Source: Asticcacaulis taihuensis
Lineage (GTDB): Bacteria; Pseudomonadota; Alphaproteobacteria; Caulobacterales; Caulobacteraceae
Assembly (NCBI RefSeq): GCF_900100255.1
Contig: NZ_FMTS01000001.1
Coordinates: 992,001-1,056,000 of the forward strand
Direction: 5' to 3'
Length of the DNA stretch: 64,000 bases
Shown here: positions 10,828 to 44,975 of the stretch, in pieces
How the letters are laid out: each line of letters opens with the position of its first letter
Position numbering within the stretch: the stretch's first letter is position 1
Notes under the pieces: generated by a model
Told to the model about the DNA's origin: nothing
The model's input: only the letters and a program-made list of their open reading frames with translations
The model's database searches: none
Made by a program: the position numbers and the translations under genes

Positions 10828-10830
10828 ACT

Positions 10831-25367: not shown

Positions 25368-25410
25368 TTCATAGCCTCGTTATGTGAATCCGGTAGTTGC
25401 GCCCCAACGA

Positions 25411-25430
25411 TTATACTGTATACAATTGTC
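25411..25430. promoter_or_regulatory. Operator a (ATACTGTATACAATTG)
   Basis: This GTATAC-centred element has an 8-base perfect core (TGTATACA) with partial outer arms. It lies 35-45 bases upstream of both the GH127 start and the DUF885 start, so it can serve both divergent genes. It matches the perfect palindrome at 32613 at most core positions. Confidence 0.65.
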
Positions 25431-25462
25431 TGGCAATACATATAAATGTGAGGTCATCGCCG

Positions 25463-29108: not shown

Positions 29109-30137
29109 ATGCCCGTCTTTAGCCGTCGTCACTTTCTAACCACATCCGCAGGTGCCGGTCTGATGTCTCCTATTCTTGCGCAGGCCGCTGAGCGCCCCTC
29201 AAAGATCGTCAATCCACTGGTCCTGCAACGCGCCGACCCGCAAGTTTTCAAACATGATGACGGTTATTACTACATGATGGCCTCGGTGCCCGAATATGAC
29301 CGGCTGGCCATCCGCCGCGCCCGTACCCTGGCCGGACTGTCAACAGCGGAAGAGGCTGTGGTCTGGCGTCGCCCCGAAAGCGGCCGGATGGCCGGCTATA
29401 TCTGGGCGCCGGAACTGCATCATTTCGACGGCCAGTGGCACATCTATTTCGCTGCCGGAAATGGCGACGACAAGTTCCATATCCGTACCTATGTGCTTTC
29501 CTGCACGGATACCAACCCGCTAACCGGCAAATGGTCCCTGACCGGCCAGCTTGAAACGCCGTGGGATAGCTTCACCCTCGATTCCACGACCTTCGTCCAT
29601 CGCGGCGTACGCTATCTGTGCTGGGCGCAGCATGAACCAGGGATCGACACCAACAGCAATCTTTACCTGGCGCCGCTGGCCACGCCGATTACCCTTGCCG
29701 CAAAACCGGCCCGCCTGACGGTCCCCACCTATGACTGGGAAACCATCGGCTTCAAGGTCAATGAAGGCCCCGCCCTTTTGGCACGCAACGGCCGTCTGTT
29801 CCTGACCTATTCGGCCGCCGCTACTGATTACCATTACTGCATGGGTCTGCTGACGGCGCACGACGACGCCGACATCATGGACCCGGCCTCGTGGGTAAAA
29901 TCACCGGAGCCGGTATTCAAAAGTTCTCCAGCCCATAACGTCTGGGGTCCCGGCCACAACAGCTTCACGGTCGATGAAAACGGGCGCGACATGCTGGTCT
30001 ATCACGCCCGCGACTATAAGGACATTCAGGGCGATCCCCTGTTCGATCCGAACCGCCACACCCGCGTCCAGCCGATCCATTATACGGCGGACGGTGTGCC
30101 GGATTTCGGAGAACCCGTGGCAAATGGCCCGCTTTAA
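29109..30137 (+). CDS. GH43 family glycosidase, probable alpha-L-arabinofuranosidase
   Basis: A Tat-exported 342-residue five-bladed beta-propeller hydrolase (signal SRRHFLTTSAGAGLMS... ending AQAA). The GH43 catalytic triad can be placed at D43 (RADPQVF, general base), D158 (TLDSTTF, pKa modulator) and E219 (KVNEGPALL, general acid). The YIWAPELHHFDGQWHIYFAA segment is standard for the family. GH43 arabinofuranosidases remove alpha-linked L-Araf; in extensin the terminal alpha-1,3-Araf caps the beta-arabinofuranosides that GH127 attacks. The gene ends in a 4-base overlap with the convergent M24 gene. Xylosidase activity is an alternative. Confidence 0.85.
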   Translation: MPVFSRRHFLTTSAGAGLMSPILAQAAERPSKIVNPLVLQRADPQVFKHDDGYYYMMASVPEYDRLAIRRARTLAGLSTAEEAVVWRRPESGRMAGYIWAPELHHFDGQWHIYFAAGNGDDKFHIRTYVLSCTDTNPLTGKWSLTGQLETPWDSFTLDSTTFVHRGVRYLCWAQHEPGIDTNSNLYLAPLATPITLAAKPARLTVPTYDWETIGFKVNEGPALLARNGRLFLTYSAAATDYHYCMGLLTAHDDADIMDPASWVKSPEPVFKSSPAHNVWGPGHNSFTVDENGRDMLVYHARDYKDIQGDPLFDPNRHTRVQPIHYTADGVPDFGEPVANGPL

Positions 30138-31315
30138 ACCCTATTGATGGCTTCCTGCGGTTCGGTGAACCACTTCGCGCCGTTTTCCGTGACGTACATG
30201 TGGTCTTCCAGGCGGACGCCGAAGGTATCGGGCACCACGATCATCGGCTCATTGGAGAAGCACATGCCCGGCGCCAGCGGCGTTGTGTCGCCACGTACGA
30301 GGAAGGCCGGTTCATGTATACTGAGGCCGATGCCGTGGCCCGTGCGGTGCGGCGTACCCGGCAGGTTGTAATCCGGCCCCAGGCCATGTTTTTCCAGAAC
30401 GGCGCGGGCGGCATAATCGACCGCCTCGCACGGTAGACCAACCTCGACGCGCGCAAAGGCGGCGGCCTGGGCTTCCTTCTCGATGTCCCAGATGCGCTGA
30501 TAGTCCGGTTTCGGCTGACCGAAGATATAGGTGCGGGTGATGTCCGAGGTATAACCCTGCACGTAGCAGCCGGTATCGACCAGCACCAGATCGCCCTCCT
30601 TCAGGCGCTGCTCGCCCGGCAGGCCATGCGGGAAGGCTGTGCCACGGCCGAACTGGGTAATGACGAAGGAGTTACCCGAAGCCCCCAGCTTGCGGTGCGC
30701 CGCCTCGATGAAATTATTGACCTCTTTCGTGGTGATGCCTTCGTAAAGCATCCGTGCCACGGCCTTATGCACAAGGATGGTCATGTCCTTGGCCTGCTGC
30801 ATCAGGGCCAGTTCCGCCGCTGACTTGTACATGCGGCAGCCATTGATGACGGACGAGGCCTCCTTGATGTCCAGCCCGGTCTCGCGGCCCAGGCGGCTGA
30901 CCATCTCGAACGACATGGCCGGATCGACAGCGATGACCGTGGCGCCCCAGTCGCTCATGGCCTGGCCGATCAGGGCGTGCGGACTTTCATGCTCCTGCCA
31001 CAGGCGGAACTCAGCGGTGATCTTCATATCGGCTTCGAGTGAACCCAGCTCGAAGAACGGACAGATCATCAATGGGTCGCCCGTCACGGGGATCAGCATA
31101 CTGACCAGGCGCTCCGAAGCGCCCCAGGGAACGCCGGCGAAATAGTTGAGGCTGGCCCCTGCCCCGACCAGAAGCGCATCGGCGCCCATGTTGCGGGTCA
31201 GCTTACGTGCCTTCTCGATGCGCGCCAGGCGTTCGGCGATAGTGATGGCCGGCGCCTGGTGAGCATAGACCGATAGTTTCGCCAGTTCGGCTTCGGGGGT
31301 GGATGAACCGATCAT
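30134..31315 (-). CDS. M24 metallopeptidase, Xaa-Pro aminopeptidase/dipeptidase type
   Basis: A cytoplasmic 393-residue pita-bread enzyme. All five dinuclear-metal ligands are visible: D247 (LVDTGC), D258 (TSDITRTY), H327 (HRTGHGIGLSIHEP), E356 (SNEPMI) and E370 (VRLEDH). An N-terminal creatinase-like domain (about 1-165) is present. Such enzymes cut X-Pro bonds, which most peptidases cannot, and so are suited to Pro- or Hyp-rich peptides. There is no signal peptide. It starts 11 bases after the D-amino-acid dehydrogenase stop, with GGAAG before the ATG, so the two share an operon. Creatinase or ectoine hydrolase are less likely given the context. Confidence 0.88.
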   Translation of the reverse strand: MIGSSTPEAELAKLSVYAHQAPAITIAERLARIEKARKLTRNMGADALLVGAGASLNYFAGVPWGASERLVSMLIPVTGDPLMICPFFELGSLEADMKITAEFRLWQEHESPHALIGQAMSDWGATVIAVDPAMSFEMVSRLGRETGLDIKEASSVINGCRMYKSAAELALMQQAKDMTILVHKAVARMLYEGITTKEVNNFIEAAHRKLGASGNSFVITQFGRGTAFPHGLPGEQRLKEGDLVLVDTGCYVQGYTSDITRTYIFGQPKPDYQRIWDIEKEAQAAAFARVEVGLPCEAVDYAARAVLEKHGLGPDYNLPGTPHRTGHGIGLSIHEPAFLVRGDTTPLAPGMCFSNEPMIVVPDTFGVRLEDHMYVTENGAKWFTEPQEAINRV

Positions 31316-31326
31316 TGCAATCTTCC

Positions 31327-32577
31327 TTACTTAAAACGTTCCAGCCCGAAGGCCTCCGGCGCACGGCCGCTTTTGAGCATATCGGCGACGATTTCGCCGG
31401 TCACCGCCCCGAGCGTCAAGCCGAGATGCTGGTGCCCGAAGGCATAAAAGAGATTATCGGCCCGGTCCGAGCGGCCGATCGCCGGCAGGTAATCCGGCAG
31501 GGTCGGGCGAGTACCGATCCATTCTCCACCTTCACCTTTGAACGGCAAGCCAAGATCACCAACATGCTTGCGCAAGCGCGTCCACTTGCGCGGGTCCGGC
31601 GCGGCATCCACCTGGTTGAACTCGACAAAGCTGGCCGCGCGGAGGCCATGCTCAAAGCCCGTCACGATCATCGAGCGATCCTCGAAGACCACCGGCGGAA
31701 AGCCCTTCGGCCAGCCGTGATCCGGCGTCTGGATATGATAGCCGCGCTCGGCGATCATCGGCACGGATTCGCCAAGACCTTCCAGCAGGGGTTTGGAGCC
31801 GATACCCGCCGCAATCACAACCGTATCAGCGGTCAGTTGTTCGCCCCCGCTCAGCACCGCCCAGGCGCTGCCCTTGCGGATAATCATTTTCTCGACGCGT
31901 TCAAACAGATACCGGCCGCCGCGCTCGATGAACCGTTCGCCCAAAGTCTCCAGCATCCGGCGAGTGTCGGCGATCTGCGCCGTGCCGATAAAGCGAATCG
32001 CCCCGTGGATTTTCTTTTGCGTCAGCGCCGACAATTGCGACATCTCGTCATCGGTCACTGGTCGCAGAGTGGCCGTTCCGGTATCCGCGGCAGACCACGA
32101 GCTTAAGCCCCTGGCGGCGCTTTCCGGCGTTTCCCAGACGACAAAATGACCATCTTCGCAGAGCAGGTCCGGCACCCCGATATCCGCCACCCGCCGTTGC
32201 CAGGCGGGCATGGCTTGGGCCAGAAGACTTTTCAGGGCCACCTTGCCCTGCGCGAAACGCTTGGGTTGCGCCGCGGCCAACAGGCGCAGCGAAAACGGCA
32301 GCCAGGCAAAAAAACCTTGCGGCGGCAGGGACAGCGCGCCGCCACGCATGAACCAGCGCCGCCAGGCGGATTTTACCGTCGCCATCGAGGCGAGCGGCTC
32401 GGCCTGCTCGGTGGCGATATGACCGGCATTGCCGTAAGAGGCCGAGTCCCGGCTGCCGCTGTCACACAAGGTGACGTGAAATCCCTGTGCCTGAAGCGCC
32501 AGGGCGATATTCAAGCCGACCACGCCGCCACCAATGACCAAACTCTTCTTAAGTGCGTTATCTTGGGGCACCGTCAT
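31327..32577 (-). CDS. FAD-dependent D-amino-acid dehydrogenase, candidate cis-4-hydroxy-D-proline dehydrogenase
   Basis: A 416-residue DAO-superfamily flavoprotein. The dinucleotide motif VIGGGVVGLNIALAL lies at residues 14-28, followed by the DadA-like GNAGHI segment. The C-terminal EWIGTRPTLPDYLPAIGRS and FYAFGHQHLGLTLGAVTGE motifs carry the substrate and FAD contacts. In hydroxyproline catabolism this class oxidises cis-4-hydroxy-D-proline, made by the epimerase, to delta-1-pyrroline-4-hydroxy-2-carboxylate. The presence of the epimerase and deaminase in the same locus supports this over plain D-alanine dehydrogenase. The perfect 16-bp operator lies 36 bases upstream of the ATG. It is co-transcribed with M24. 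Confidence 0.85.
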   Translation of the reverse strand: MTVPQDNALKKSLVIGGGVVGLNIALALQAQGFHVTLCDSGSRDSASYGNAGHIATEQAEPLASMATVKSAWRRWFMRGGALSLPPQGFFAWLPFSLRLLAAAQPKRFAQGKVALKSLLAQAMPAWQRRVADIGVPDLLCEDGHFVVWETPESAARGLSSWSAADTGTATLRPVTDDEMSQLSALTQKKIHGAIRFIGTAQIADTRRMLETLGERFIERGGRYLFERVEKMIIRKGSAWAVLSGGEQLTADTVVIAAGIGSKPLLEGLGESVPMIAERGYHIQTPDHGWPKGFPPVVFEDRSMIVTGFEHGLRAASFVEFNQVDAAPDPRKWTRLRKHVGDLGLPFKGEGGEWIGTRPTLPDYLPAIGRSDRADNLFYAFGHQHLGLTLGAVTGEIVADMLKSGRAPEAFGLERFK

Positions 32578-32612: not shown

Positions 32613-32628
32613 ATATCGTATACGATAT
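32613..32628. promoter_or_regulatory. Operator c, perfect 16-bp palindrome ATATCGTATACGATAT
   Basis: This is the best copy of the locus-wide element: all eight base pairs of the two half-sites match. It lies 36 bases upstream of the D-amino-acid dehydrogenase start and in the same gap as the GntR gene. Its GT/AC symmetric core is typical of FadR-subfamily GntR binding sites. Confidence 0.8.
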
Positions 32629-32816: not shown

Positions 32817-32863
32817 AACAGCGCAGGACTCACGTGAACCCTGTCGCCCTCCGGGAAACTTTC

Positions 32864-33529
32864 ATGACCATTGTGGTTCAAACCCTCTCCGAACAGATCT
32901 TTTCCCTGGTCCGTGACCGCATCATTTCCGGCAAGCTGCCCACCGATACGGCCATCCGCCAGGACGCCCTGGCCGCCGAGCTGGGCGTCAGCAAGATTCC
33001 ACTGCGCGAGGCCCTCGCCCGCCTGGAGCAGGAGGGCCTGCTTCTCTCCCACGCCAATCGCGGCTTCTTCGTCCGGCCACTGAACGCCGACGAGGTCGAA
33101 GAGGTCTTCGCCCTGCGCCTGAAACTCGAACCCGAAGCCGTGGGTGAAGCCGCAAAAGTGGCTACGGACGCCGACCGGAAAGCCGCCCGCGCCGCGCTCG
33201 ATGCGCTTGATGTTGCCGCCAGTGGCGATAAGACCCAGGTGGGCAAGCTCAACCGTGCCTTCCATATGTCGCTCGTTTATCCGCTGCATCGCCAGATTAC
33301 CGTCCAGATCATTGAGCGCCTGAATATCATCTCGGAACGCTATGTCGGCAAGCACCTGGAACCGGCGGGCCGCGACGACCGCGCCCACAATGAACACCTG
33401 GCCCTGTTTGAACTGTGGGCTACCGGCAAGTCGGAAGAGGTCTCGGCCCTGATGCGCCAGCATATCGCCATGACGCTGGAAGACCTGCGCAAGCAGTTCG
33501 AAACGGAAAAAACAGCGGCCAGCGCTTAA
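32864..33529 (+). CDS. GntR-family (FadR/FCD) regulator, candidate master regulator of the hydroxyproline-glycoprotein locus
   Basis: A 221-residue regulator with an N-terminal winged helix (TAIRQDALAAELGVSKIPLREALARLEQEGLLLSHANRGFFV) and an FCD effector domain. The domain has the expected helical pattern and His residues (LNRAFHMSLV, RAHNEHLALF, MRQHIAM) for metal-assisted ligand binding. I prefer the ATG at 32864; a GTG at 32834 is in frame. It stands alone between two operator copies and ends in a strong terminator. GntR repressors are known to control hydroxyproline genes elsewhere (HypR of Sinorhizobium). Control of all GTATAC operators in this locus is an inference from position and palindrome type. 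Confidence 0.88.
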   Translation: MTIVVQTLSEQIFSLVRDRIISGKLPTDTAIRQDALAAELGVSKIPLREALARLEQEGLLLSHANRGFFVRPLNADEVEEVFALRLKLEPEAVGEAAKVATDADRKAARAALDALDVAASGDKTQVGKLNRAFHMSLVYPLHRQITVQIIERLNIISERYVGKHLEPAGRDDRAHNEHLALFELWATGKSEEVSALMRQHIAMTLEDLRKQFETEKTAASA

Positions 33530-33596: not shown

Positions 33597-35021
33597 CTAT
33601 TCGGCGGGCGTTGCCTTGGCTTCCTTGCGCAGGCGGCTGTTCCACCGGCCGAACGAGAAGTAGAAGACCAGACCGATGGCCATCCAGATCAACGTGAAAA
33701 GCTGACTCTGGATCGGCAGGCTGGAAAAGATAAAGATGCAGCCCCCAATGGTGATCAGGCCAACCAGCCAGTAGAGCGGCGTCTTGAAGGTTCGCTGCAT
33801 GTCCGGCAGTTTCCGGCGCAGGATGATCATCGAAAGCGCCACAGCCACGAAGGCGATCAGGGTGCCGGCATTGGACAGCTCGGCGATCTGCTTCAAGGGG
33901 ATAAAGCCGGCGAAGATGGCAACAAAGATACCGGTCAGGAGGGTGATCAGGGCCGGTGCGCCCTTGGCATTGACCTTGGCCACGGCTTGCGGCAGCAGAC
34001 CGTCACGCGCCATGACGAAGAAGATGCGGCTCTGGCCGTACATCATGACAAGGATGACCGATGGAAGGGCTACGATAGCGGCGCCGCCAACCAGCGAGGC
34101 CACCAAGGGCTGGCCAAGTGTGCGCAGGACGTGCGGCAGCGGTTCGCCCGACGCGGCGATATCCTGATAACCGACAGCCCCAACGGCGACAGCGGCCACC
34201 AGCATGTAGATCAGCGTCGAGACACCCATGGAACCCAGGATGCCGATGGTCAGGTCGCGGCCAGGGTTCTTGGCTTCTTCGGCCGAGGTCGAAACGGCAT
34301 CGAAGCCGAAGAAGGCGAAGAACACGATAGCCGCTGCAGCCATGACGCCGAGCTTTTCGCCGCCGACCTCATGCGCCAGGAAACCAAAGGGCATGAACGG
34401 ATCGTAGTGACCGGCCTGGATGGCGGGAAAACCCAGAACGACAAAGGCGCCGAGTGCCACGATCTTGACAATGACGAGAATGATATTGAGCGTGGCGCTT
34501 TCACGGGCGCCGATCAGCAGCAGCCCCATGACGGCCAGGGACACGACGACGGCGGGCAGATTGACCAGTCCGCCGGCATAGGGGCCGCTAAGCAGGAAGG
34601 CCGGCAGGTGCAGACCAATGCCCTCCTCCAGCCAGCCGACCAAGTGGGCCGACCAGCCGACGGCCACCGTCGAACAGGCCAGCGAATATTCCAGGATCAG
34701 CGCCCAGCCAACGACCCAGGCCACAATCTCGCCCATACTGGAATAGCTGTAGGTATAGGCGGAACCGGCCGTCGGGATCAGGGTCGACATTTCGGTGTAA
34801 CACAGGGCCGCGCAGGCGCAGACAATGCCGCACAGGGCAAACGAGACAATAACGCCCGGCCCGGCCAGACCCGCGCCGACGCCGGTCAGGGTATAGATGC
34901 CGGTGCCGATGATGCCGCCAATCCCCAGCGCCATCAGGTGCGGCCAGCTCAGCGTCTTGGCCAGCGTCTTGCCGTCTTCTTCCGCGCGCCTCAGCGGCTT
35001 CAGTGGTCCAAATAATCCCAT
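33597..35021 (-). CDS. APC-family amino acid permease (cationic amino acid transporter-like)
   Basis: A 474-residue inner-membrane carrier with twelve or more helices. The APC signature is present in helix 1 (ALGIGGIIGTGIYTLTG), with the conserved FFAFFGFDAVSTSAEEAKNPGRDLTIGI segment of the CAT group. Members exchange or import amino acids by proton symport. In this setting it is a candidate proline, hydroxyproline or short-peptide-derived amino acid importer. The ATG at 35021 has GGGA upstream. It lies downstream of the 35079-37859 gene on the same strand, past a hairpin, and no own operator is visible. Confidence 0.88.
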   Translation of the reverse strand: MGLFGPLKPLRRAEEDGKTLAKTLSWPHLMALGIGGIIGTGIYTLTGVGAGLAGPGVIVSFALCGIVCACAALCYTEMSTLIPTAGSAYTYSYSSMGEIVAWVVGWALILEYSLACSTVAVGWSAHLVGWLEEGIGLHLPAFLLSGPYAGGLVNLPAVVVSLAVMGLLLIGARESATLNIILVIVKIVALGAFVVLGFPAIQAGHYDPFMPFGFLAHEVGGEKLGVMAAAAIVFFAFFGFDAVSTSAEEAKNPGRDLTIGILGSMGVSTLIYMLVAAVAVGAVGYQDIAASGEPLPHVLRTLGQPLVASLVGGAAIVALPSVILVMMYGQSRIFFVMARDGLLPQAVAKVNAKGAPALITLLTGIFVAIFAGFIPLKQIAELSNAGTLIAFVAVALSMIILRRKLPDMQRTFKTPLYWLVGLITIGGCIFIFSSLPIQSQLFTLIWMAIGLVFYFSFGRWNSRLRKEAKATPAE

Positions 35022-35035
35022 TGTGTTTCCCAAAA

Positions 35036-35078: not shown

Positions 35079-37859
35079 TTAGTTGGCTTTTGGCGTCAGT
35101 TCAATAGTCGTTGCATTTGCACCGAGTTGAATGACATAGGCACCGCGTTCGGTTTGAGCATTCGCCATGTAGGGTTTGCCGGTGGCGGTCGTGGTCTTGA
35201 CGTTGAGATAGGCTTTCGGCGTATGTATGTCCGCCGGCGCCAGGCTGACCGTCACCGCGCCCGTCTTAGGGTAATAGGTGGCGGCGGTGAATTTGCCGGC
35301 ATCGAGGGTGAGCCACAGGCCCGCCGGCGCGATGAAGAGGCGAGCACGGGCGCTGTCGGTCGGCGTGAGCGTTATAACGCCGCCCGTCTGGCTGACATTG
35401 CCACCGAAGCCCGCCCAGCCAAAGGTCGGGTGATCGACCAGATAGGCGGCGGCGCTGACGGCATGGCCATAGAAGCTCATACCGTAGTCGCCATTCATAC
35501 CGTCCCAGTGCATGGCGTCCGGGAAGGAGTGGAAGGCCGCCGCGCCGAAGCCCTCGGAATCGATATTGGTCAGCGAGCCCATCAGGCCGCCATAGGCCAC
35601 GCGCAGGAGCTGGAAGTCGGACGGATTAGCGCGATAGGCGTCAAACAGCGGCACGGCATTGAGCGACGAGCCATAGTGATGCAACTGACGCTCGATGCGC
35701 GACTGCTTGCCGGCATAGAGGAAGTCCCAGAAGCGGCGGGCCGAGCCATTATAGCCCCAGTGCGGGATCGTCGGGTCGTAGGCCAGAATGACCTCGCGCG
35801 TCACATCGGCCGCCTTTTCGTCACCGAAATAGCGCGACCACATATAGACCTCGGCCTGGCCGGTCGAATCCCACGGCATTTCCGAGCCAAACGGATATTT
35901 CAGCGTCTTCCAGATGTCGGCGCGGCCCTTCATCATCGTCTCGATCTCGGCGGCCTCGTCCGTATAGCCCTCGCGCTTGAGGTCCTGGAGGATATAGACG
36001 AAGACATCGCCCTCCATCTGGCCGAACTGGGTATAGTAAGGCGCCTTGGTCATCATCGCCTTGGTGGTTTCGGCAGCGCGCGTCAGGTAGGTCTGCCAGG
36101 TTTCCTTGGTCGTCAGGCCGTCATGATAGCGGCCAAGGCGATACAGCGTCCACCAGGCGGCGGCGACGTGCGGATAGTTGTAGGAGCGGCCGAGATCGGC
36201 GGCGCCCTCGCGGTCCCAGGCCGACCAGGTGTTCCAGTTCAGCTTCGGATCGTAGGTGCCTTCCGGCATGGTCTTCGGATCGTAGAACATGACCGACTTG
36301 CGCACGCCGTACTTGTCAGGCCCGTCCGGCGTCTGAATCTGGCCCCACAGGGTGGTGTCGGCAAACTGCTCGAACTTGGCGACCTCTTCGGGCACCGGAT
36401 TGTCGAGTTGCTTCATGATGGTGGCCAGCCACGAACCCGCCCCGCCCTCGTCGCTCAGGCCCGCCACCCAGACACGGTTGTCCTGGGTGATGATGTGGCT
36501 CTCATCACGGTCATAGCCCATGATCGACGGGCTGCGTTTGAAGGGATCGGACGGATTTTCGTACCACTGCTTCGTTGTCAGGAAATGGCCCATATCGGCC
36601 ACCACCTCAAGTTCCGGCTTGGTGACAAGATAATGCACGGTCTGCACCGAACCATCGGCATAGGTGATGGCCATACGGGCGCGGCCGTCGATTTTACCGG
36701 TGACGGCGTATTTAACCCAGCCGTCCTTGGCCCTCTGCGAAGCACCGACCTCAAGCGCGCCTTCCGGGAAGATGCTGACCGACTTCACCGCCTGCGCGGA
36801 ATGGACGAACAGCTCGGCATCGGTATCGGCCGGCAGCACATAGCCTGGCAGCCCCACCACCACCGGACGACCGTTCTGCATCAGGGTGGTCTCGATTTCG
36901 CGGATGGACGGCGACAGGACGAAGCGCACACCGATGGTGCGGCTCTCGCCGGCTTTCAGCACAAGCGCGGTCGGTTCATTCCACTGCTGAATACCCTTCC
37001 AGTCGGTATCGGCGAAACCCTTCGAAGCGACCATCCAGTCGTAAAAGCCCTCGAAGGTCATGTTGCGCGGTTCGGGATCGTTGTAGATCTTCAGCGACTT
37101 GTCGGCGTTGCGCTGGTTGAGGATTGGCTTGTAGAGCTCGAACGGTGTGTTCTTTTCCGGCAGGACCAGGAGCGACGGCCCGGCGCCATTCAGGCGATTG
37201 ACCTGGAGATAGCCGGCATCCCGGCCGACATAGGGGTCATAAAACGAGGCGGTTTCGTGAGCATCATCGAGGTGACGGCCGGTAATGATATTATCAAACA
37301 CCATCGGCAGCCCCAGGGCGCCGATCTCGATCGCGGTCTTGCCCGGATTGGTCAGGGTATAACGCAAGACCAGCTTGCCAGCGACGACCGACCAGGTGCG
37401 CGTCACCTTGAGCGGAAAACCGGCACCCAGAGACGGTGTGATATCTGCGGCGGCCAAAGCCCCATTCACCTTCAGCGGCTTGACCTTGGCGCGCTTATAG
37501 GCGGTTGAATAGTCGCTCCATGCCTCGCTCCCCACGGCCCGCAGGCGCAGGTCGAGATCACCGATACGATAGGCGCCATCGCCCAGGCGCTGGGTAAAGC
37601 GATTGGCCGGGGCGAAATCGAAACCATCCTTCGCCGCCTTCGGCGCCAGAGAGACCAAGGTCTGCGAGGTTTCCTGCAGCGACAGCATGAAGTCCGGCGT
37701 CTCAAAAACCGAAATCTGCGCATCAGGGCTGTTCCACGACTGCACTGCCGGGGCAGTTTGCGCCATGACCGGCAGGGCGACACCACTCATTGTCAGGGCC
37801 GCAGCCAGAACCAGCAGGCTCGAACAGCGGCGGAAAGCGGAGATGGTGCGACGGGTCAT
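35079..37859 (-). CDS. Large secreted protein, DUF5695-like, candidate glycoside hydrolase
   Basis: A 926-residue exported protein with a signal peptide ending in LPVMAQ. The first half is beta-sandwich-like. The second half is a helical toroid with WNTWSAWDREGAADLGRSYNYPHVAAAWW, YTQFGQMEGDVFVYILQDL, GSEMPWDSTGQAEVYMWSRYFG and a HWGYNGSARRFWDF motif. The acidic residues there are candidate catalytic groups. It resembles proteins I recall under the label DUF5695; this could not be checked and no activity is known to me. The ATG at 37859 has AGG upstream. An operator lies about 64 bases upstream. It is a good candidate for an unassigned activity on hydroxyproline arabinosides. Confidence 0.65.
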   Translation of the reverse strand: MTRRTISAFRRCSSLLVLAAALTMSGVALPVMAQTAPAVQSWNSPDAQISVFETPDFMLSLQETSQTLVSLAPKAAKDGFDFAPANRFTQRLGDGAYRIGDLDLRLRAVGSEAWSDYSTAYKRAKVKPLKVNGALAAADITPSLGAGFPLKVTRTWSVVAGKLVLRYTLTNPGKTAIEIGALGLPMVFDNIITGRHLDDAHETASFYDPYVGRDAGYLQVNRLNGAGPSLLVLPEKNTPFELYKPILNQRNADKSLKIYNDPEPRNMTFEGFYDWMVASKGFADTDWKGIQQWNEPTALVLKAGESRTIGVRFVLSPSIREIETTLMQNGRPVVVGLPGYVLPADTDAELFVHSAQAVKSVSIFPEGALEVGASQRAKDGWVKYAVTGKIDGRARMAITYADGSVQTVHYLVTKPELEVVADMGHFLTTKQWYENPSDPFKRSPSIMGYDRDESHIITQDNRVWVAGLSDEGGAGSWLATIMKQLDNPVPEEVAKFEQFADTTLWGQIQTPDGPDKYGVRKSVMFYDPKTMPEGTYDPKLNWNTWSAWDREGAADLGRSYNYPHVAAAWWTLYRLGRYHDGLTTKETWQTYLTRAAETTKAMMTKAPYYTQFGQMEGDVFVYILQDLKREGYTDEAAEIETMMKGRADIWKTLKYPFGSEMPWDSTGQAEVYMWSRYFGDEKAADVTREVILAYDPTIPHWGYNGSARRFWDFLYAGKQSRIERQLHHYGSSLNAVPLFDAYRANPSDFQLLRVAYGGLMGSLTNIDSEGFGAAAFHSFPDAMHWDGMNGDYGMSFYGHAVSAAAYLVDHPTFGWAGFGGNVSQTGGVITLTPTDSARARLFIAPAGLWLTLDAGKFTAATYYPKTGAVTVSLAPADIHTPKAYLNVKTTTATGKPYMANAQTERGAYVIQLGANATTIELTPKAN

Positions 37860-37922
37860 AACAGGCCTTGGATGGAATGGGATCGATATCCATGTAAAAC
37901 ACCGATCCAATTGTCCGTCAAA

Positions 37923-37938
37923 TATAAATTATACGATT
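37923..37938. promoter_or_regulatory. Operator e (TATAAATTATACGATT)
   Basis: Sixteen bases identical to the element at 20389-20404, in the 89-base gap between the S9 peptidase stop and the start of the large secreted protein. The right arm TATACGAT matches the perfect palindrome at 32613; the left arm is degenerate. Confidence 0.5.
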
Positions 37939-37948
37939 TTGTGACGGA

Positions 37949-40276
37949 TTAAGGTGCTTTCGGCGCCGTTTCCGGCAGCGCGTTCCAGTCGGGCGTCGGC
38001 TCGTCCCGCAGATAGCGCACGAAGTAATCATACTGGCGGCGCAGGCCGTAGCTGAAATCGCCGACATTGCGCAGGGCACCATGGCCCTGATTGGGCGCCA
38101 CGATCAGATCGAAATCCTTGCGCGCCTTGATCAGGGCATTCGCCACCTGAAGCGTCGAGGACGGATCGACGTTCGTGTCCTGCTCGCCGACAATCATCAG
38201 GATATGGCCCTGCAGCCGCCAGGCATTATCGACGCCGGAGGATTTGCTGTATGCGTCGTCGACCGGCCAGCCCATCCATTCCTCGTTCCAGCTTATCTTG
38301 TCCATGCGGTTGTCATAGCAGCCGGCATAGGCGACCGCGGCCTTGTAGAAATCCGGATGGAATTCCAGCGCACCCAGCGAGCTTTGCCCGCCGGCCGAAC
38401 CGCCATAGATGCCAATGCGGCTGATGTCGTACCACGGATATTTCGCCGCCACGGCCTTGTGCCACAGAATGCGGTCGGGAAAGCCGGAATCGCCGACATT
38501 CTTCCACGCCACGTCATGGAAGGCCTTGGAGCGGTTCATCGTGCCCATGCCATCGATCTGCACAACGATGAAGCCGAGATCGGCCTGGGCCTGCATCCCC
38601 ACCACCTTGTCGCCACCCGAATGCAGGCCGAACGGCCAAAAGGTCTTGGGCACGAAATTGTCATGCGGCCCGGCATAGATGTTCTCGATCACCGGGTATT
38701 TTTTATTGGGGTCGAAGTTGCGCGGCCGCACGATGATGCCCCAGATATCGGTCTTGCCGTCGCGGCCCTTGGCAGTGAAAACCTCCGGCGCCTTGAAGCC
38801 GGCGGCGAGCAATTTAGTGATATCGCCGTGTTCGACCTCGGTGACCAGCGCGCCATCATTGCTGTGCAGTTCGGCGATATTGGGCAGGTCAATGCGGGAG
38901 TATGTATCGACATAATAGGCCATGTCGCTGGAGAAGCTGACATCGTGCCAGGCGTCGGTCGTGGTGATCGGCGTCAGGTGCCTGCCATCGAAATCGACGC
39001 GGAAGACGTGCTGGAAATACGGGTCCTTGCCGGGATAGATGCCACTGGCGGCAAACCAGATCTGACGCTTCTGGTCATCGACCTTCAGCACCTTGCGCAC
39101 GATCCAGTCGCCCCTGGTGATCTGGGTCTTCACCTTCCCGGTGGTCTGGTCGTAGAGATAGAGGTGGTTCCAGCCATCGCGCTCCGACATCCAGATCAGT
39201 TCTTTGCCTAAGCCCCCGACATCGTGGCTGTAGCGCCGCTCGATATTGACGAAGGTATCGGCATGATCTTCGGCGACGATGCGCGCCACGCCTGTCTTGG
39301 CACTGGCCTCGATCAGGCGATAGGCCTGATGTCCGCGCTGGTCGTACTCAAAGGTAATGGCCGAGGAATCCGCCCGCCAGTTGATATTCGACATGGTGTA
39401 GGGATTGGGAAACAGATCGAACGGCACATTTATCTGCTTTTTAGCCACCACATCGAACAGCACCGGCCGGTCGATATCGACCGCATCGCCCGGCTTAGGG
39501 TATAGCTGGGTCGCCAGTTTCGGCTCGATCTCGCCTTCGGGCGAGGAGATGACGCGCGTGACGTGGCGGGCAAAACCGGGGCGTACGCGATAGGCGGCCA
39601 GCTTTTGCGAATCCGGCGACCAGACGATCGACTGCGGATCGTAGAACTCGCCCTCGGAGCCGTCAGTGCTCAGCACGGTCATCGCGCCGCCGGCCGCGGG
39701 TTTGACCACCACATTGAAGCCCTGCACGAAGGCTATCCACTTGCCATCCGGCGAGGGCTTCGGCGAATTGTCGGCGGGAATGGTCAGGTCGCGCACCACG
39801 CCAAAACCGCGCGGCTGGCCGGCGCTTTCCGGCACACGGGCGCACACATAGTCGGTCAGGGTGCAGGACCAGGCTTCGTCCTCATCGAGCCAGGTCACCA
39901 GTCCCTTGTCGCCATCGGTAAAGCTGACAGAGGTCATCGGCTCGGTAAAGGGCAGGTGCAGGCCGCTATAGGTCTCGCCCAGCGCCTTGCTTAAAGATGC
40001 CGCCAGACGGTCCTGATCAAAAGCCGGGGATTTCGCCTTCGTATCGGCGTCCATCATGACGAACTGGAAGCCGCCCGGAACGGTCTTGCGATAGATGAAG
40101 CGGTGCGTGCCTTCGATCCACTGCGCGGGCTCAGCGATATTCTCGGTCAGGCCCGACCAGTCATTGCGCAGGTTGAGCGAGCGCTGATAATCGGCCACGG
40201 TCGGCGCGGCAGAGGCGGATACCGAATAAACGGCCAGACCCAAAACTAAAAAGCCCGTTTGCACCCGCATTTTCAT
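37949..40276 (-). CDS. S9 family prolyl peptidase, dipeptidyl-peptidase IV-like
   Basis: An exported 775-residue serine peptidase (signal ending in SASA). It has an N-terminal eight-bladed propeller region (DPPIV_N, about residues 100-500) and a C-terminal alpha/beta-hydrolase domain. The catalytic triad is S627 ([10 protein letters not shown]), D700 (VGEQDTNVD) and H732 (NQGHGAL). DPP-IV enzymes release X-Pro dipeptides from the N-terminus, an activity suited to Pro/Hyp-rich chains. The ATG at 40276 has GAGGG five bases upstream. It is divergent from GH27, with operator f between them. Acylaminoacyl peptidase is a less likely alternative. Confidence 0.9.
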
Positions 40277-40364: not shown

Positions 40365-41861
40365 ATGCGCAAACTGTTGACGACAACCATTTTGAGCGGC
40401 CTGTTGCTGGCCTCCGGTGCAATCGCCGAAATCCCCAATGGCGGCTGGGTGTTCGATTCCTCGCCCGATTACCCCGGCTTTACACGCCTGGTGATCGAGG
40501 AAAAGAAGGGCAAGCTCTCCGGCAAGGTGACGTCGAAATGGTATGGCGACCTGCCGCTCACCGACCTGCATGCTGATGGCGATAATCTCGTCTTCAAGCT
40601 CTACAACGGCAATCCGCGCGTCACCATGACCGACATTGTCGTCAAGTCGGAGGGCAAATCGGTGCGCATGACCGGCAAGGTCTGGTACCAGGATTTCGAC
40701 CTCACCGCCCACAAGGGCAAGCGTTCGGAACTGAAGGCGCTCGATTTCCCGACCTTTGCCCTGCCCGCTAAACGCGTGGTGACGCAGAAGCCCCTGGCCC
40801 CTACCCCGCCGATGGGCTGGAGTTCGTGGAACAAGTTCGCCACCGATATCAACGACCAGACGATCCGCGAGATCGCCAACGCCCTGGTCTCATCCGGCCT
40901 GCGTGACGCGGGCTACGTGTACGTCAATATCGATGACGGCTGGCAAGGCGAGCGCGACGCGCAAGGCGCGCTCCATCCGAACAAGAACTTCCCCGACATG
41001 AAGGCGTTGGCCGATTACGTTCATGCCCGCGGTCTTAAGCTCGGCATCTATTCCTCGCCGGGGCCGAAGACCTGTGCCGGCTATAACGGCTCTTACGGCC
41101 ATATCAAGCAAGACGCCGACACCTTCGCCGCCTGGGGAATAGACTACCTGAAATACGATCTGTGTTCCGGCGAGGCCTTCTATTCGACAGCCGAGACCGT
41201 ATACGCCACCTATCAGGAGATGGGCGAGGCGCTGAACGCCACGGACCGCGATATTGTCTACTCCCTGTGCGAATACGGCCGCTTCGATGTTGGTTCCTGG
41301 GCGCGCCAGGTCGGAGGCCACCTGTGGCGCACCACCGGCGATATCGAGGACAAATACGACGTCATGGCCAAGATCGGCTTCGACAAAAATGGTGTGGCCA
41401 ATCATACCGGCCCGAACGGCTGGAACGATCCCGACATGCTGGAGATCGGCAATGGCGGCATGAGCCAGGACGAATACCGCACACACATGACCCTTTGGGC
41501 CATGCTGTCGGCGCCGCTGGTGCTGGGCAATGATGTCCGTCACATGACGCCGGAAACCCTGTCGCTGCTGACCAACAAGGAAGTCATCGCCATCGACCAG
41601 GATACACTGGGCGCCCAAGGCCTGCCGGCAAAAAAAGACGGCACGACCGAGGTGTGGACCAAGAAACTGGCCGATGGTTCGACCGCCGTGGCCCTGTTCA
41701 ATCGTGGCGACGAAAACACCCTCATCAGCGGCAACTGGGCCGATATCAAGGTGAAAGGAACGACCGTCCGCGACCTGTGGGCCCACAGCGATCACCCTGC
41801 CGACGAAGGCTATGCCTATGCCGTACCGAAACATGGTGCAGTGCTATTGAGAGTAAAATAG
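40365..41861 (+). CDS. GH27 glycosidase (alpha-galactosidase type) with extra N-terminal beta domain
   Basis: An exported 498-residue enzyme (signal ending in GAIA). Residues about 22-130 form an extra beta-rich domain (GGWVFDSSPDYPG... KVTSKWYGDLPLTDL). The GH27 barrel then starts at PTPPMGWSSWNKF. The nucleophile is D265 (YLKYDLC) and the acid/base is in NDPDMLEIGNGG (D357). D190-D191 (VNIDDGW), which bind galactose O4/O6 in alpha-galactosidases, are kept, so alpha-galactosidase is favoured over beta-L-arabinopyranosidase. A C-terminal beta domain ends in GAVLLRVK. Its likely target here is the Ser-linked alpha-galactose of extensin. Only three bases separate it from the reductase gene, so the two are co-translated. 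Confidence 0.9.
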   Translation: MRKLLTTTILSGLLLASGAIAEIPNGGWVFDSSPDYPGFTRLVIEEKKGKLSGKVTSKWYGDLPLTDLHADGDNLVFKLYNGNPRVTMTDIVVKSEGKSVRMTGKVWYQDFDLTAHKGKRSELKALDFPTFALPAKRVVTQKPLAPTPPMGWSSWNKFATDINDQTIREIANALVSSGLRDAGYVYVNIDDGWQGERDAQGALHPNKNFPDMKALADYVHARGLKLGIYSSPGPKTCAGYNGSYGHIKQDADTFAAWGIDYLKYDLCSGEAFYSTAETVYATYQEMGEALNATDRDIVYSLCEYGRFDVGSWARQVGGHLWRTTGDIEDKYDVMAKIGFDKNGVANHTGPNGWNDPDMLEIGNGGMSQDEYRTHMTLWAMLSAPLVLGNDVRHMTPETLSLLTNKEVIAIDQDTLGAQGLPAKKDGTTEVWTKKLADGSTAVALFNRGDENTLISGNWADIKVKGTTVRDLWAHSDHPADEGYAYAVPKHGAVLLRVK

Positions 41862-41864
41862 ACG

Positions 41865-42878
41865 ATGACTGAACAAACCCTGTCGCTGGACGAAGCCCTG
41901 GCCTTAAGCCTCAATGTTCTGGAAAGAAACGGCTTCTCGCCCGAACACGCCGGCGCCATCGCCCGCAACATCTGGAAAGGGCAGCGCGACGAATGCCATT
42001 CGCATGGCCTCTACCGCCTGCTGGTCTGCACTCACACCCTGAAAAGCGGCAAGGTGTCGCCCGATGCCCTGCCCGAAGTGCACGACGCTGCGCCCGGTCT
42101 GGTGCGCGTCGACGCGAAGGGCGCCTATTCGCTGCTGTCGTTTGAAACCGGTCTGCCGATTTTGGCGGAAAAAGCCCGCAAACAAGGCATTGCCGCGCTG
42201 GCCATTAATCACTGCTACCACTTTTCGGCCCTGTGGCCTGAGGTCGAGGCTATCGCCGCACAGGGGCTGGTCGGTCTGGCGCTGACGCCAAGCCATTCCT
42301 GGGTCGCGCCTTTTGGCGGCACAAAGGGCGTCTTCGGCACCAATCCGCTGGCCTTTGCCTGGCCGCGTCCAGGGCAAAACCCGTTTGTTTTCGACTTTGC
42401 CACCAGCGCCGCCGCGCGCGGCGAGATCGAACTGCACCGCCGTGCCGGCAAAGTGATACCCGAAGGCTGGGCCGTCGATACCGAAGGTCACCCCACCACC
42501 GACCCGACCGAAGCCATGAATGGTGCCATGCTAACCTTCGGCGGCCACAAGGGCTCGGCGCTTTCGGCCATGATCGAACTGATGGCCGGCCCGCTGATCG
42601 GCGACCTGTTGAGCCTGGAGTCGCAGGCTTTCGACAAAGGCGCCGGCGCCACGCCCTATCACGGCGAACTGGTCATCGCCATCGATCCGCAGGTGTTCAT
42701 GGGGCCGTCGGCGGACCTGCACAGCGCCCGCGCCGAAAAGCTGTTCGAAGCCATTGTCGACCAAGGCGCCCGCCTCCCCTCGCAACGCCGCTACGAGGCC
42801 CGTGCCCGCAGCGAGGCCAGCGGCACGGTCAGCATCCCCAAACAGCTCTACAGGGACATCATAGCCCTGCTGGATTAA
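41865..42878 (+). CDS. dpkA: Delta-1-pyrroline-2-carboxylate / delta-1-piperideine-2-carboxylate reductase (DpkA-like)
   Basis: A 337-residue NAD(P)H enzyme of the malate/L-lactate dehydrogenase-like (Ldh_2) family. It reduces the cyclic imines delta-1-pyrroline-2-carboxylate and delta-1-piperideine-2-carboxylate to L-proline and L-pipecolate. The DpkA pattern is clear: RDECHSHGLYR with the catalytic His (H47), the INHCYHFSALWPEVE block, FGTNPLAFA and PFGGHKGSALS-like sequence. This reductase normally serves trans-3-hydroxyproline or D-proline metabolism, so it complements the 4-hydroxyproline genes nearby. It is coupled to GH27. Its stop overlaps the convergent epimerase stop by four bases. 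Plain malate dehydrogenase is unlikely. Confidence 0.82.
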   Translation: MTEQTLSLDEALALSLNVLERNGFSPEHAGAIARNIWKGQRDECHSHGLYRLLVCTHTLKSGKVSPDALPEVHDAAPGLVRVDAKGAYSLLSFETGLPILAEKARKQGIAALAINHCYHFSALWPEVEAIAAQGLVGLALTPSHSWVAPFGGTKGVFGTNPLAFAWPRPGQNPFVFDFATSAAARGEIELHRRAGKVIPEGWAVDTEGHPTTDPTEAMNGAMLTFGGHKGSALSAMIELMAGPLIGDLLSLESQAFDKGAGATPYHGELVIAIDPQVFMGPSADLHSARAEKLFEAIVDQGARLPSQRRYEARARSEASGTVSIPKQLYRDIIALLD

Positions 42879-43879
42879 ACGACCTGGAAACCCGCCCAGA
42901 AGGCGTCTTCGCGGTCGATCCAGATGTTGTTGAAACCGGTCGAGATGGCGGAACCTTCGATCGACGGAATGATCGCCTTCTGGTCGCCCAGCATGACCTC
43001 GTCTTCGACACGGCCGATGAACTGGCTGCAAATGTAGCTTTCGTGGACGAAGCGATCGCCCTTTTTCAATTTACCCTTGGCATGAAGGTGCGCAAGGCGC
43101 GCGGAAGTGCCGGTGCCGCAGGGCGAACGGTCGATGGCGCGCTCGCCGTAGAAGACGGCATTACGGCCGTCGGCGTTTTCACTCTTGGGCTTGTCGGCCC
43201 ACAGGATGTGACTGACGCCGCGGATCGTGGGATCGACCGGATGGACTGGCTCATACTTTTCGCGCACCAGTTGGCGGATGACGCGGCTAAGTTCGATAAT
43301 ACGGGCGGCGCCCAGGTCATCAAGGCCGGTATATGGGCCGTCGGCGGTTGGCTCGATGATGGCGTAATAGTTGCCACCATAGGAAACATCGAGGGTCAAT
43401 TTACCCAAATCCGGCACGTCGATCTCGATACCTGTGGCGGCCAGATAGGCCGGCACATTGGTGATCTTCACCGAAGTCACCTTATTGCCGCTCGTTGTGT
43501 AGTCGATATTGATCACGCCCGCGGGCACTTCCAGCTTCAGCTTGCCCGGCGTGCGCGGGGTTACCAGGCCGTTTTCCAGCGCAAAGGTCACCATGCCGAT
43601 GGTGCCGTGGCCGCACATCGGCAGGCAGCCGGAGGTTTCGATGAACAGGATGCCAGCATCGGTATCAGCTTGGGTCGGCGGATAGAGGAAGCCGCCGGAC
43701 ATCATGTCATGGCCACGCGGCTCAAAACACAGGCCGGTACGAATCCAGTCGAACCGTTCCAGGAAATCCTGCCGCCGCTCGGACATATTGCTGCCCTTGA
43801 GCAGAGGCGCGCCACCGGCGACGAGACGGACTGGGTTGCCGGCCGTGTGGCCATCGATGCAGAAAAAGGTGTGGCGCAT
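42875..43879 (-). CDS. 4-hydroxyproline 2-epimerase
   Basis: A 334-residue proline-racemase-family enzyme that converts trans-4-hydroxy-L-proline to cis-4-hydroxy-D-proline, the first step of the pathway. Both catalytic cysteines are present: C89 (SGCLPMCGHGTIG) and C254 (DRSPCGTGTSA). A Thr at the second site would instead indicate trans-3-hydroxyproline dehydratase. The RGHDMMSGGFLYPP segment is typical of 4-hydroxyproline epimerases rather than proline racemases. The ATG at 43879 starts MRHTFFCIDGHTAGNP as in the family; upstream in-frame sequence is repeat DNA. It follows the deaminase gene on the same strand, with a repeat element between. Confidence 0.93.
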   Translation of the reverse strand: MRHTFFCIDGHTAGNPVRLVAGGAPLLKGSNMSERRQDFLERFDWIRTGLCFEPRGHDMMSGGFLYPPTQADTDAGILFIETSGCLPMCGHGTIGMVTFALENGLVTPRTPGKLKLEVPAGVINIDYTTSGNKVTSVKITNVPAYLAATGIEIDVPDLGKLTLDVSYGGNYYAIIEPTADGPYTGLDDLGAARIIELSRVIRQLVREKYEPVHPVDPTIRGVSHILWADKPKSENADGRNAVFYGERAIDRSPCGTGTSARLAHLHAKGKLKKGDRFVHESYICSQFIGRVEDEVMLGDQKAIIPSIEGSAISTGFNNIWIDREDAFWAGFQVV

Positions 43880-43889
43880 GGGAAACCCT

Positions 43890-44011
43890 AACTCAAAAAA
43901 GCCCCCTCTCCCCGTATGCGGGGAGAGGGTTGGGGTGAGGGGCAACTACTGATAAGCCCCTCATCCGGCCTTATCAGGCCACCTTCTCCCCGTAAACGGG
44001 GAGAAGGGATA
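43890..44011. repeat. Intergenic palindromic repeat element (two hairpins)
   Basis: Two 11-bp hairpins flank this gap: 43904-43929 (CCCTCTCCCCG stem, loop TATG) and 43982-44007 (CCTTCTCCCCG stem, loop TAAA). Between them are further G-rich and C-rich inverted segments (TTGGGGTGAGGGG and CCCCTCATCC). This type of extragenic palindrome is widespread in alphaproteobacterial genomes. It lies between two genes of one likely operon and may affect mRNA stability. Confidence 0.8.
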
Positions 44012-44926
44012 TCACGCGGCCTTGGTGATCTTGAGGCTTGGGCGCGTAGCCGCAGCCTTTTCGACCATGGCGGTGACCTCAGCGCGACGAGCGCCGGTCA
44101 GCGGCATACGCGGCATACGCACGCGTTCCGAACCGCGGCCCATGATCTGTTCGGCCAGCTTGATCGATTGGACCAGATCGTGCTCGGCATCGAGGTGCAG
44201 CAGCGGCAGGAACCAGCGGTAGATTTCGCGGGCGGTAGCGATATCGCCCGCTTCCAGCGCCTTGACCAGCATGACAGATTCGTGCGGGAAGGCCGAGGTC
44301 AAGCCCGAGACCCAGCCTTGCGCGCCCAGCAGCAGACCTTCGAAAGCCACGTCATCGAGGCCGGCGAAGACGATATAACGGTCACCGAAGGCATTGATCA
44401 TGTCGGTGAAGCGGCGGGTGTCGGCGGTCGATTCCTTAACAGCGACGATGTTCTTCACAGGACGAAGCGCCTCAAGGGCCTCGTTGGTGATGGCGACGCG
44501 ATAGGCGGTCGGGTTATTATAGAGCATGATCGGCAGTGTCGTGGCATTGGCGACCTGGGTGAAATGCTCGACCAGTTCGGCGGTCTTGGGCACATAGACC
44601 ATGGCCGGCAGCAGCATCAGGCCATTGGCGCCGAGCTTTTCAGCATCCTTGACCCAGGCGATGGCCAGGGGCGTGGTCAGTTCGGAGACACCGGTGACGA
44701 CCGGAACGCGGCCGGCGACAACCTCGACAATGGCCTTGAGAAGCAGACGCTTTTCCTCGGCGGTGAGCGAGTTGTTCTCGCCGCAGGTGCCCATGGCGAT
44801 GATTCCGGTGACGCCGTCCCGGATCAGATCATCGACGACGCGCTGCGTATCGGCATAATCGATTGAGAGGTCTTCTTTGAATTGCGTCGTTACGGCCGGA
44901 AACACACCCCGCCAATCGATTGTCAT
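44012..44926 (-). CDS. DHDPS-family lyase, candidate delta-1-pyrroline-4-hydroxy-2-carboxylate deaminase
   Basis: A 304-residue class I aldolase-type barrel. The Schiff-base Lys is K164 (VAVKES) and the catalytic Tyr is Y136 (LYNNPTAYRV). The GTT/GE loop reads MGTCGENNSLT. Together with the nearby hydroxyproline epimerase and D-amino-acid dehydrogenase, this points to the deaminase that opens delta-1-pyrroline-4-hydroxy-2-carboxylate to 2-oxoglutarate semialdehyde and ammonia. Lysine-pathway DapA is less likely because the gene sits in a catabolic locus and has an atypical substrate loop. Operator g lies 34 bases upstream. The 2-oxoglutarate semialdehyde dehydrogenase that completes the route is not in the window. 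Confidence 0.85.
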   Translation of the reverse strand: MTIDWRGVFPAVTTQFKEDLSIDYADTQRVVDDLIRDGVTGIIAMGTCGENNSLTAEEKRLLLKAIVEVVAGRVPVVTGVSELTTPLAIAWVKDAEKLGANGLMLLPAMVYVPKTAELVEHFTQVANATTLPIMLYNNPTAYRVAITNEALEALRPVKNIVAVKESTADTRRFTDMINAFGDRYIVFAGLDDVAFEGLLLGAQGWVSGLTSAFPHESVMLVKALEAGDIATAREIYRWFLPLLHLDAEHDLVQSIKLAEQIMGRGSERVRMPRMPLTGARRAEVTAMVEKAAATRPSLKITKAA

Positions 44927-44959: not shown

Positions 44960-44975
44960 ATATCGTATACAATGT
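44960..44975. promoter_or_regulatory. Operator g (ATATCGTATACAATGT)
   Basis: A copy of the locus-wide palindrome with an intact left half-site (ATATCGTA) and a right half-site with two changes. It lies 34 bases upstream of the deaminase start. Confidence 0.7.

Follow-up and report, generated by a model that had tools for sequence, protein, structure and literature searches.

The product of the DUF5695 gene in the Asticcacaulis taihuensis window (the whole stretch of 64,000 nucleotides analysed here) is a two-domain protein whose assignment, by fold and family, to the neighbourhood of polysaccharide lyase family PL27 we regard as practically settled, and its closest solved relative is the PL27 L-rhamnose-α-1,4-D-glucuronate lyase BACCELL_00875. 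The gene has an unusual 23-bp element in common with a TonB-dependent receptor gene and recurs among genes for the use of hydroxyproline (Hyp)-rich glycoproteins; a role on such glycoproteins is very probable. As a tentative first choice, we propose that it encodes an exported enzyme, sister to PL27, that would serve the use of Hyp-rich plant glycoproteins through β-elimination with altered specificity.

The minus-strand open reading frame ends at 35079 and, with the ATG at 37859 as start, encodes 926 aa; the alternative TTG start at 37910 would give 943 aa. In Pfam the protein is a full-length member of PF18951 (DUF5695), matched over residues 61-916 and profile positions 2-853 of 857 with E = 0 and 1274.3 bits (cut-off 25.2). 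This is its sole Pfam match at E ≤ 10, and PF07944, the GH127/GH146 catalytic domain, gives none at that threshold. Pfam assigns no function to PF18951; NCBIfam returned no family for the protein, and a single-sequence phmmer search of the PDB gave no match at E ≤ 10. The hydrophobic N-terminus, judged by eye, resembles a signal peptide, and the protein is probably exported. Its AlphaFold model (mean pLDDT 85.8, pTM 0.87) shows a beta-rich N-terminal part (residues about 49-413), a helical middle (about 416-802) and a C-terminal beta part (805-923), and is weakest in the motif loops (residues 705-708, 712-729 and 777-783, pLDDT < 50). The gene and its domains are placed as follows:

35079..37859, minus: DUF5695 gene, PL27-like protein (PF18951 at 1274 bits, AlphaFold, Foldseek/VIA, hhalign)
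36618..37742, minus: beta-rich domain at the N-terminus, roughly residues 40-414, corresponding to the PL27 N-terminal sandwich (AlphaFold, VIA, hhalign)
35448..36617, minus: (alpha/alpha) barrel, residues about 415-804 (AlphaFold, hhalign, column comparison)
35082..35447, minus: additional beta domain at the C-terminus, roughly residues 805-926, outside the PL27-aligned part (AlphaFold, VIA)

The A. taihuensis genome contains one DUF5695 match. Homologues with 43-88% identity were found at 65 loci in three phyla, in Asticcacaulis, Rhizomicrobium, Sphingosinicella, Stakelama, Sphingomonas, Acetobacter, Alteromonas, Shewanella, Sphingobacterium, Mucilaginibacter and Acidobacteriota, and four further ones lie on Sphingomonas and Novosphingobium plasmids. 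A gene spread over such hosts must be real and old.

A profile built from 47 DUF5695 sequences retrieved the PL27 structures 5no8/5nok from the PDB at E 1e-5, with the next match at 0.096. The AlphaFold model gave the same answer in Foldseek (5no8_A, E 3.4e-29, TMt 0.81; next different protein 9.9e-7) and in VIA, where 5no8 superposes over 625 of 669 residues with Z 30.7, rmsd 3.1 and 17% identity, the alignment covering residues 54-804 of the 926, and where the runner-up family reaches Z 18.6 over 300 residues. For a comparison of families, PL27-type proteins were collected from one Bacteroidota family (13 of 251 genomes matched; two fragmentary genomes were left out), and the 11 full-length sequences aligned, three of them about 95% alike, gave in hhalign a probability of 99.4 and E 8.7e-22 over 512 columns against DUF5695. 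Among the 11, one sequence matches BACCELL_00875 at 1e-214 and scores 24.2 bits against PF18951, whose cut-off is 25.2. Profile search, model matches, hhalign and this near-cut-off score agree in making DUF5695 a sister family of PL27. PL27 is defined, in the part of PMC8377490 consulted, by an N-terminal beta-sandwich and a C-terminal (alpha/alpha) barrel, a layout found in the 926-aa protein by AlphaFold, Foldseek and VIA. The earlier note had described a DUF5695-like 926-residue protein made of a beta-sandwich plus a toroid, which holds, with the C-terminal beta domain to be added; it had also named GH127, GH121, GH146 and clan GH-G as folds for comparison, and there the result points elsewhere, to a polysaccharide lyase. 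No GH127, GH146 or GH121 entry stands among the best 50 Foldseek or VIA matches, which are ranked lists and not direct superpositions, so that this absence carries no weight. GH94, GH76, GH116, AGE, mutarotase and complement-type folds were considered as kin and set aside for single-domain cover or very high rmsd. We found no statement of the DUF5695-PL27 kinship in the open-licence papers searched, one of which mentions DUF5695, as a CD-Search match within one clade of velvet proteins from fungi.

In 44 columns of the alignment the DUF5695 and PL27 sets have the same residue, with 90% conservation or more. They include, in the barrel, D438, R442, D450, D470-E471, R558, Y562, E660, R709-x-W711-D712 and H728-Y729-x-S731, the last two being the PL27 motifs R-x-W-D (R587, W589, D590 in L083 numbering) and H-Y-x-S (H606, Y607, S609). 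A catalytic tyrosine is said to act as the base in PL27. The full set of residues invariant in the 11 PL27-type sequences is not retained in DUF5695: W448, Y485, N533, H588, D602 and W608 (L083 numbering) are replaced by H564, M615, P662, Y710, R724 and G730, respectively. So the scaffold and a polar core have been retained, with part of the rest remodelled, and the replacements suggest that the substrate, perhaps also the chemistry, differs. Within the 47-sequence DUF5695 alignment the invariant acids are E471, E660, D664, D712 and E723.

The genes around DUF5695 are:

17287..20292, minus: TonB-dependent receptor with the shared 23-bp element (PF00593, PF07715)
22950..25367, minus: GH127-clan protein, candidate beta-L-arabinofuranosidase (PF07944; best PDB match 5opj)
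25397..27223, plus: DUF885 protein (domain match)
27225..28175, plus: metallopeptidase-like protein, HEXXH motif (HEFSH), N-terminus signal-like (motif)
29109..30137, plus: GH43
30134..31315, minus: M24 peptidase, prolidase-like
31327..32577, minus: DAO FAD oxidoreductase, D-Hyp dehydrogenase candidate
32834..33529, plus: GntR/FCD regulator, candidate local regulator
33597..35033, minus: amino-acid permease
37949..40276, minus: S9/DPPIV peptidase
40365..41861, plus: GH27 (best PDB matches alpha-galactosidases)
41865..42878, plus: Ldh_2 oxidoreductase
42875..43945, minus: 4-hydroxyproline epimerase (NF010578, 542.4 bits, cut-off 376)
44012..44926, minus: DHDPS-family protein, Hyp-pathway deaminase candidate
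45151..46926, plus: DUF885 protein
46936..48714, plus: DUF885 protein

The S9 peptidase and GH27, already named as neighbours in the earlier note, are respectively the gene directly adjoining DUF5695 and the one after it, divergent from S9. The 5opj entry we take to be the GH146 enzyme BT0349, and the DAO and DHDPS proteins presumably have roles in the Hyp pathway. The HEXXH protein has no Pfam match at E ≤ 1 and is 64% identical to the relative in locus L012 that was used as search seed. Glycosidases, peptidases and Hyp catabolism are thus found together, the combination that marks a locus for the utilisation of Hyp-rich glycoproteins, and in the 41 window frames scanned the only glycosidase families are GH127, GH43, GH27 and a GH18 domain. 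A neighbour of 780 aa at 14865-17204, followed as a clue to the substrate, matched neither Pfam nor NCBIfam and gave nothing useful in the PDB; its model is poor (pLDDT 57.5) with weak six-hairpin-like Foldseek matches. Of 50 DUF5695 genomes, 20 contain a match to it, in 19 cases with at least 48% identity; no weight is put on this protein here.

Four sites in the window bear on regulation:

37916..37938, minus: 23-bp promoter/operator-like element AATCGTATAATTTATATTTGACG, upstream of DUF5695 (motif count)
20382..20404, minus: same 23-bp element with one A/T position changed, upstream of the TonB receptor (motif count)
32615..32626, no strand: palindrome ATCGTATACGAT between DAO and GntR (palindrome count)
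44962..44973, no strand: palindrome ATCGTATACAAT between the DHDPS and DUF885 genes (palindrome count)

Two copies of the 23-bp element are found in the window where shuffles give 0.00 expected (≤ 3 mismatches), and the whole 3.97-Mb genome has three copies of AATCGTATAATTTATAWTTGACG (23 bp) at ≤ 2 mismatches, the reversed control giving 0; the third copy accompanies a putative RNA gene (L128, about 10000-10297) next to another GH127 cluster, and L128 also has an FCD regulator at 10299-10961. The element stands upstream of DUF5695 at all 11 Asticcacaulis loci (0 mismatches in seven, 1 in one, 2 in two and 5 in one), so that the operator copy once ascribed to the gene is, for Asticcacaulis, a stronger point than had been claimed. 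The TTGACG at its end could be a -35 box. In Rhizomicrobium (L016) the element is upstream of the TonB receptor. Ten of 20 genomes searched carry one to three copies at ≤ 2 mismatches, and seven of the ten without it do carry DUF5695, which confines the evidence of co-regulation to Asticcacaulis. Palindromes of the type ATNGTATACNAT number four in the window against 0.49 expected at ≤ 1 mismatch: a pair in the DAO-GntR gap, a single one in the gap between the DHDPS and DUF885 genes, and another at the start of the DUF885 gene at 25397. The FCD regulator may bind the 23-bp element or these palindromes. Pattern TNGTATANNA was found five times against 1.14 expected, palindromes being counted twice, and ATTGTCCGTC was discarded as a regulatory motif, its three occurrences against 4.15 expected being no better than chance.

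The genomic context was surveyed over the 65 DUF5695 loci, up to 10 kb per side with some flanks shorter. Relatives of GH127 occur in 34 loci, the commonest of the neighbour families tested, of S9 in 32, DUF885 in 26, DAO in 22, the Hyp epimerase family in 20, DHDPS in 19 and HEXXH in 7; what is counted is relatives, a few families among them (DAO, permease) with members only 20-30% identical, and not proven orthologues, and loci from the same genus do not count as independent. Forty-eight loci contain one or more of seven markers (GH127, epimerase, DHDPS, S9, DUF885, M24, HEXXH); of the 17 devoid of all seven, 11 belong to Acidobacteriota. In L010, L011, L019 and L045 GH127 lies directly behind DUF5695 on the same strand, and in some relatives DUF5695 adjoins a POT-family peptide transporter, which fits glycan trimming for peptide and hydroxyproline use. 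An epimerase-family match was obtained in 45 of 50 DUF5695 genomes, in 34 at 57% identity or above. Among these 34 the epimerase is inside the fetched DUF5695 locus in 15 and verified within 15 kb of DUF5695 in 18 (two same-contig cases and the A. taihuensis window included); in five others the contig number or the scaffold coordinates point the same way, and the rest lie elsewhere or could not be placed. Across 200 genomes of the order, epimerase-family matches were found in all five genomes with DUF5695, at 16 kb or less from it by the printed coordinates, versus 34 of the 195 without it.

As control, eight PL27 loci of one Bacteroidota family were inspected (about 9 kb per side) with seeds mostly from the window and a laxer E-value than in the DUF5695 survey; the same seeds detect the marker genes in Bacteroidota DUF5695 loci. 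One of the eight contains a marker gene, a single HEXXH relative, versus 48 of 65 DUF5695 loci; none holds Hyp genes, GH127, S9 or DUF885, and one has GH2.

Because of (i) the kinship with PL27 and (ii) the retained His-Tyr and Arg-x-Trp-Asp motifs, elimination is held to be slightly more likely than hydrolysis, and even so its attribution to DUF5695 is a tentative one. In the model, DUF5695 would be expressed under the promoter element common to the TonB receptor of the locus, and its N-terminal sandwich would pack on the (alpha/alpha) barrel retaining the Arg-x-Trp-Asp and His-Tyr-x-Ser motifs of PL27. The enzyme would most likely remove a terminal sugar from the glycans of Hyp-rich glycoproteins, by β-elimination at a uronic-acid residue with altered specificity, and the backbone would become usable by the S9, M24, DUF885 and HEXXH peptidases and by the Hyp pathway.

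GH88 and GH105 enzymes remove the product of a uronate lyase, and a GH105 step reportedly follows PL27. A GH88/GH105 match is present in 26 of 37 DUF5695 genomes and absent from 11, which is weak evidence against a uronate lyase and argues against a simple Rha-GlcA lyase; GH88 relatives appear in only two DUF5695 loci (L055 and L056), both at the locus edge, in a search with one insensitive BLAST seed. In addition, the extensin arabinosides, as described in the parts consulted of PMC10850190 and PMC9266454, show no uronic acid. All three points disfavour elimination.

A plausible alternative, to be taken seriously though far from established, is that a PL27-type scaffold works as a glycoside hydrolase on extensin arabinosides or galactosides, its conserved barrel acids cutting terminal β-L-Araf, α-L-Araf or Gal. 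Such a hydrolase would have the five invariant acids at hand, and the lack of GH88/GH105 in 11 of 37 genomes would suit it; GH127 is its most frequent companion among the neighbour families tested, sometimes directly behind it, and the locus carries the extensin-type genes GH27, GH43, GH127 and Hyp epimerase, with a GH18 domain as the one further glycosidase family in the 41 frames scanned. However, its closest structural relative is a lyase, a GH127-clan protein is encoded in the locus and another GH127 lies near the third element copy, and GH146 enzymes act on Araf-β1-Hyp, according to the part of PMC10850190 consulted, so that a further β-arabinosidase would be partly redundant. The GH146 activity and the GH127-clan gene of the locus also weaken the earlier premise of an innermost Hyp-Ara bond still in want of an enzyme. 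What stands of the earlier proposal is a protein of sandwich-plus-barrel fold that has its element in common with the TonB receptor gene and lies in a recurring Hyp-glycoprotein context, whereas kinship with an arabinosidase family finds no support.

It is unlikely that DUF5695 acts as a true PL27, taking L-rhamnose from the Rha-α-1,4-GlcA caps carried by arabinogalactan-proteins, likewise rich in Hyp. The two-domain fold and both motifs would suit it, PL27 enzymes free Rha from gum arabic (PMC8377490, part consulted), and on a Sphingomonas sp. R1 plasmid the 13 kb or so behind DUF5695 contain a GH88 gene, a rhamnose mutarotase and rhamnogalacturonan genes, although these may form a separate pectin locus; the replaced PL27-invariant residues, the eight PL27 loci devoid of Hyp genes, GH127, S9 and DUF885, and the genomes without GH88/GH105 all speak against it. 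A non-catalytic glycan-binding surface protein feeding the TonB receptor, for which the common 23-bp element could be adduced, is more improbable still, the invariant polar residues in common with a known enzyme family being unexpected in a pure binder.

Beyond the preferred reading of a PL27-sister enzyme with altered specificity, a bolder and rather doubtful one is that DUF5695 is a new lyase-fold family for plant Hyp-rich glycoproteins, removing a cap or linkage beyond the reach of known families. Its chemistry would be either uronate β-elimination with acidic Hyp-glycans as substrates or hydrolysis, a use to which the PL27 scaffold would newly be put, and the family would recur within glycoprotein-utilisation loci of three bacterial phyla. 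In any case a hitherto uncharacterised domain becomes a testable enzyme, with a named structural relative, candidate residues and a narrow substrate class. To our knowledge, the Bifidobacterium arabinosidases apart, the ways in which bacteria break down glycoproteins of the extensin and arabinogalactan types have been charted only sparsely; if the PL27 scaffold is indeed re-used for Hyp-linked glycans, DUF5695 would supply a missing step and a tool for the analysis of plant glycoproteins.

Among known systems, PL27 (BACCELL_00875, PDB 5no8/5nok; BT0263) resembles DUF5695 in its sandwich and (alpha/alpha) barrel and in the kept R-x-W-D, H-Y-x-S, D-E, R and Y residues. DUF5695 differs from it in being only about 17% identical, in the extra C-terminal beta domain, in the replacement of several PL27-invariant residues and in its Hyp/GH127/peptidase context, present in 48 of 65 loci as opposed to one of eight. 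The GH127/GH146 β-L-arabinofuranosidases are frequent neighbours of DUF5695, whereas the DUF5695 protein itself is devoid of PF07944. The HypBA1/HypBA2/HypAA system of Bifidobacterium, as presented in the parts consulted of PMC7263609 and PMC10850190, is directed to Hyp-linked arabinosides, which are broken down with GH127 and GH43 enzymes, families also encoded in the Asticcacaulis locus; to these the latter adds peptidases, a TonB receptor, Hyp catabolism and DUF5695.

No plus-strand gene directly follows the third genomic copy of the 23-bp element, the operator-like sequence that also lies upstream of DUF5695. Instead, downstream of this copy, in the region of the window's genome designated L128 (contig C10, from 73967), there is a stretch of about 290 nt with strong folding (z -5.08), whose 3' end is a GC hairpin plus seven T and which gave no match in Rfam. 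This region is a putative small RNA. A second cluster adjoins the element copy.

L128:9967-10297, third element copy with the putative small RNA region that follows it
L128:4505-18771, second cluster, with genes for S9/DPPIV, FCD-GntR, GH43, GH127 with an F5/8-type domain, and a TonB receptor

Since the GntR gene, encoded on the other strand, sits between the element and GH43, the third element need not drive this cluster.

In the window, 56 nt separate the 23-bp element from the DUF5695 start, whereas in four loci of other Asticcacaulis a longer, related leader intervenes.

L006:9597-9875, DUF5695 leader
L037:9687-9985, DUF5695 leader
L009:9724-9980, DUF5695 leader
L015:8895-9160, DUF5695 leader

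These leaders carry a conserved TCAGTCAA stretch and a terminator-like hairpin, and it is possible that they represent an attenuator, or an RNA gene that moved.

The neighbourhood of DUF5695 was compared across 65 loci, and the following genes, those of one further plasmid locus included, are considered here.

14865-17204, minus, 780-aa protein without a Pfam family
L003:4159-5574, POT-family (PTR2) peptide transporter adjoining DUF5695
L045:8185-9696, POT-family (PTR2) peptide transporter adjoining DUF5695
L098:20890-33940, genes downstream of DUF5695 on a Sphingomonas sp. R1 plasmid
27225-28175, plus, HEFSH metallopeptidase-like protein

The 780-aa protein may be a second enzyme without assigned function in the DUF5695 system. 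It has a match in 20 of 50 DUF5695 genomes, with an identity of at least 48% in 19 of them, and its relatives lie within 10 kb of DUF5695 in five of the 65 loci (Stakelama, Acidobacteriota). The transporter cluster is present in seven loci, from Acetobacter and from genomes of the window's own family. The plasmid genes encode a TonB receptor, rhamnogalacturonan lyase and acetylesterase, a GH28-related protein, RhaM, beta-galactosidase and GH88; the arrangement looks like a glycoprotein locus with a pectin locus joined on.

The HEFSH protein had no match in Pfam; relatives occur in 7/65 DUF5695 loci, and one more near a gene of the sister family PL27 (L150). According to PMC9266454, Svx proteins are HEXXH gluzincins for which extensin cleavage has been proposed, and Asticcacaulis is among their reported sources.
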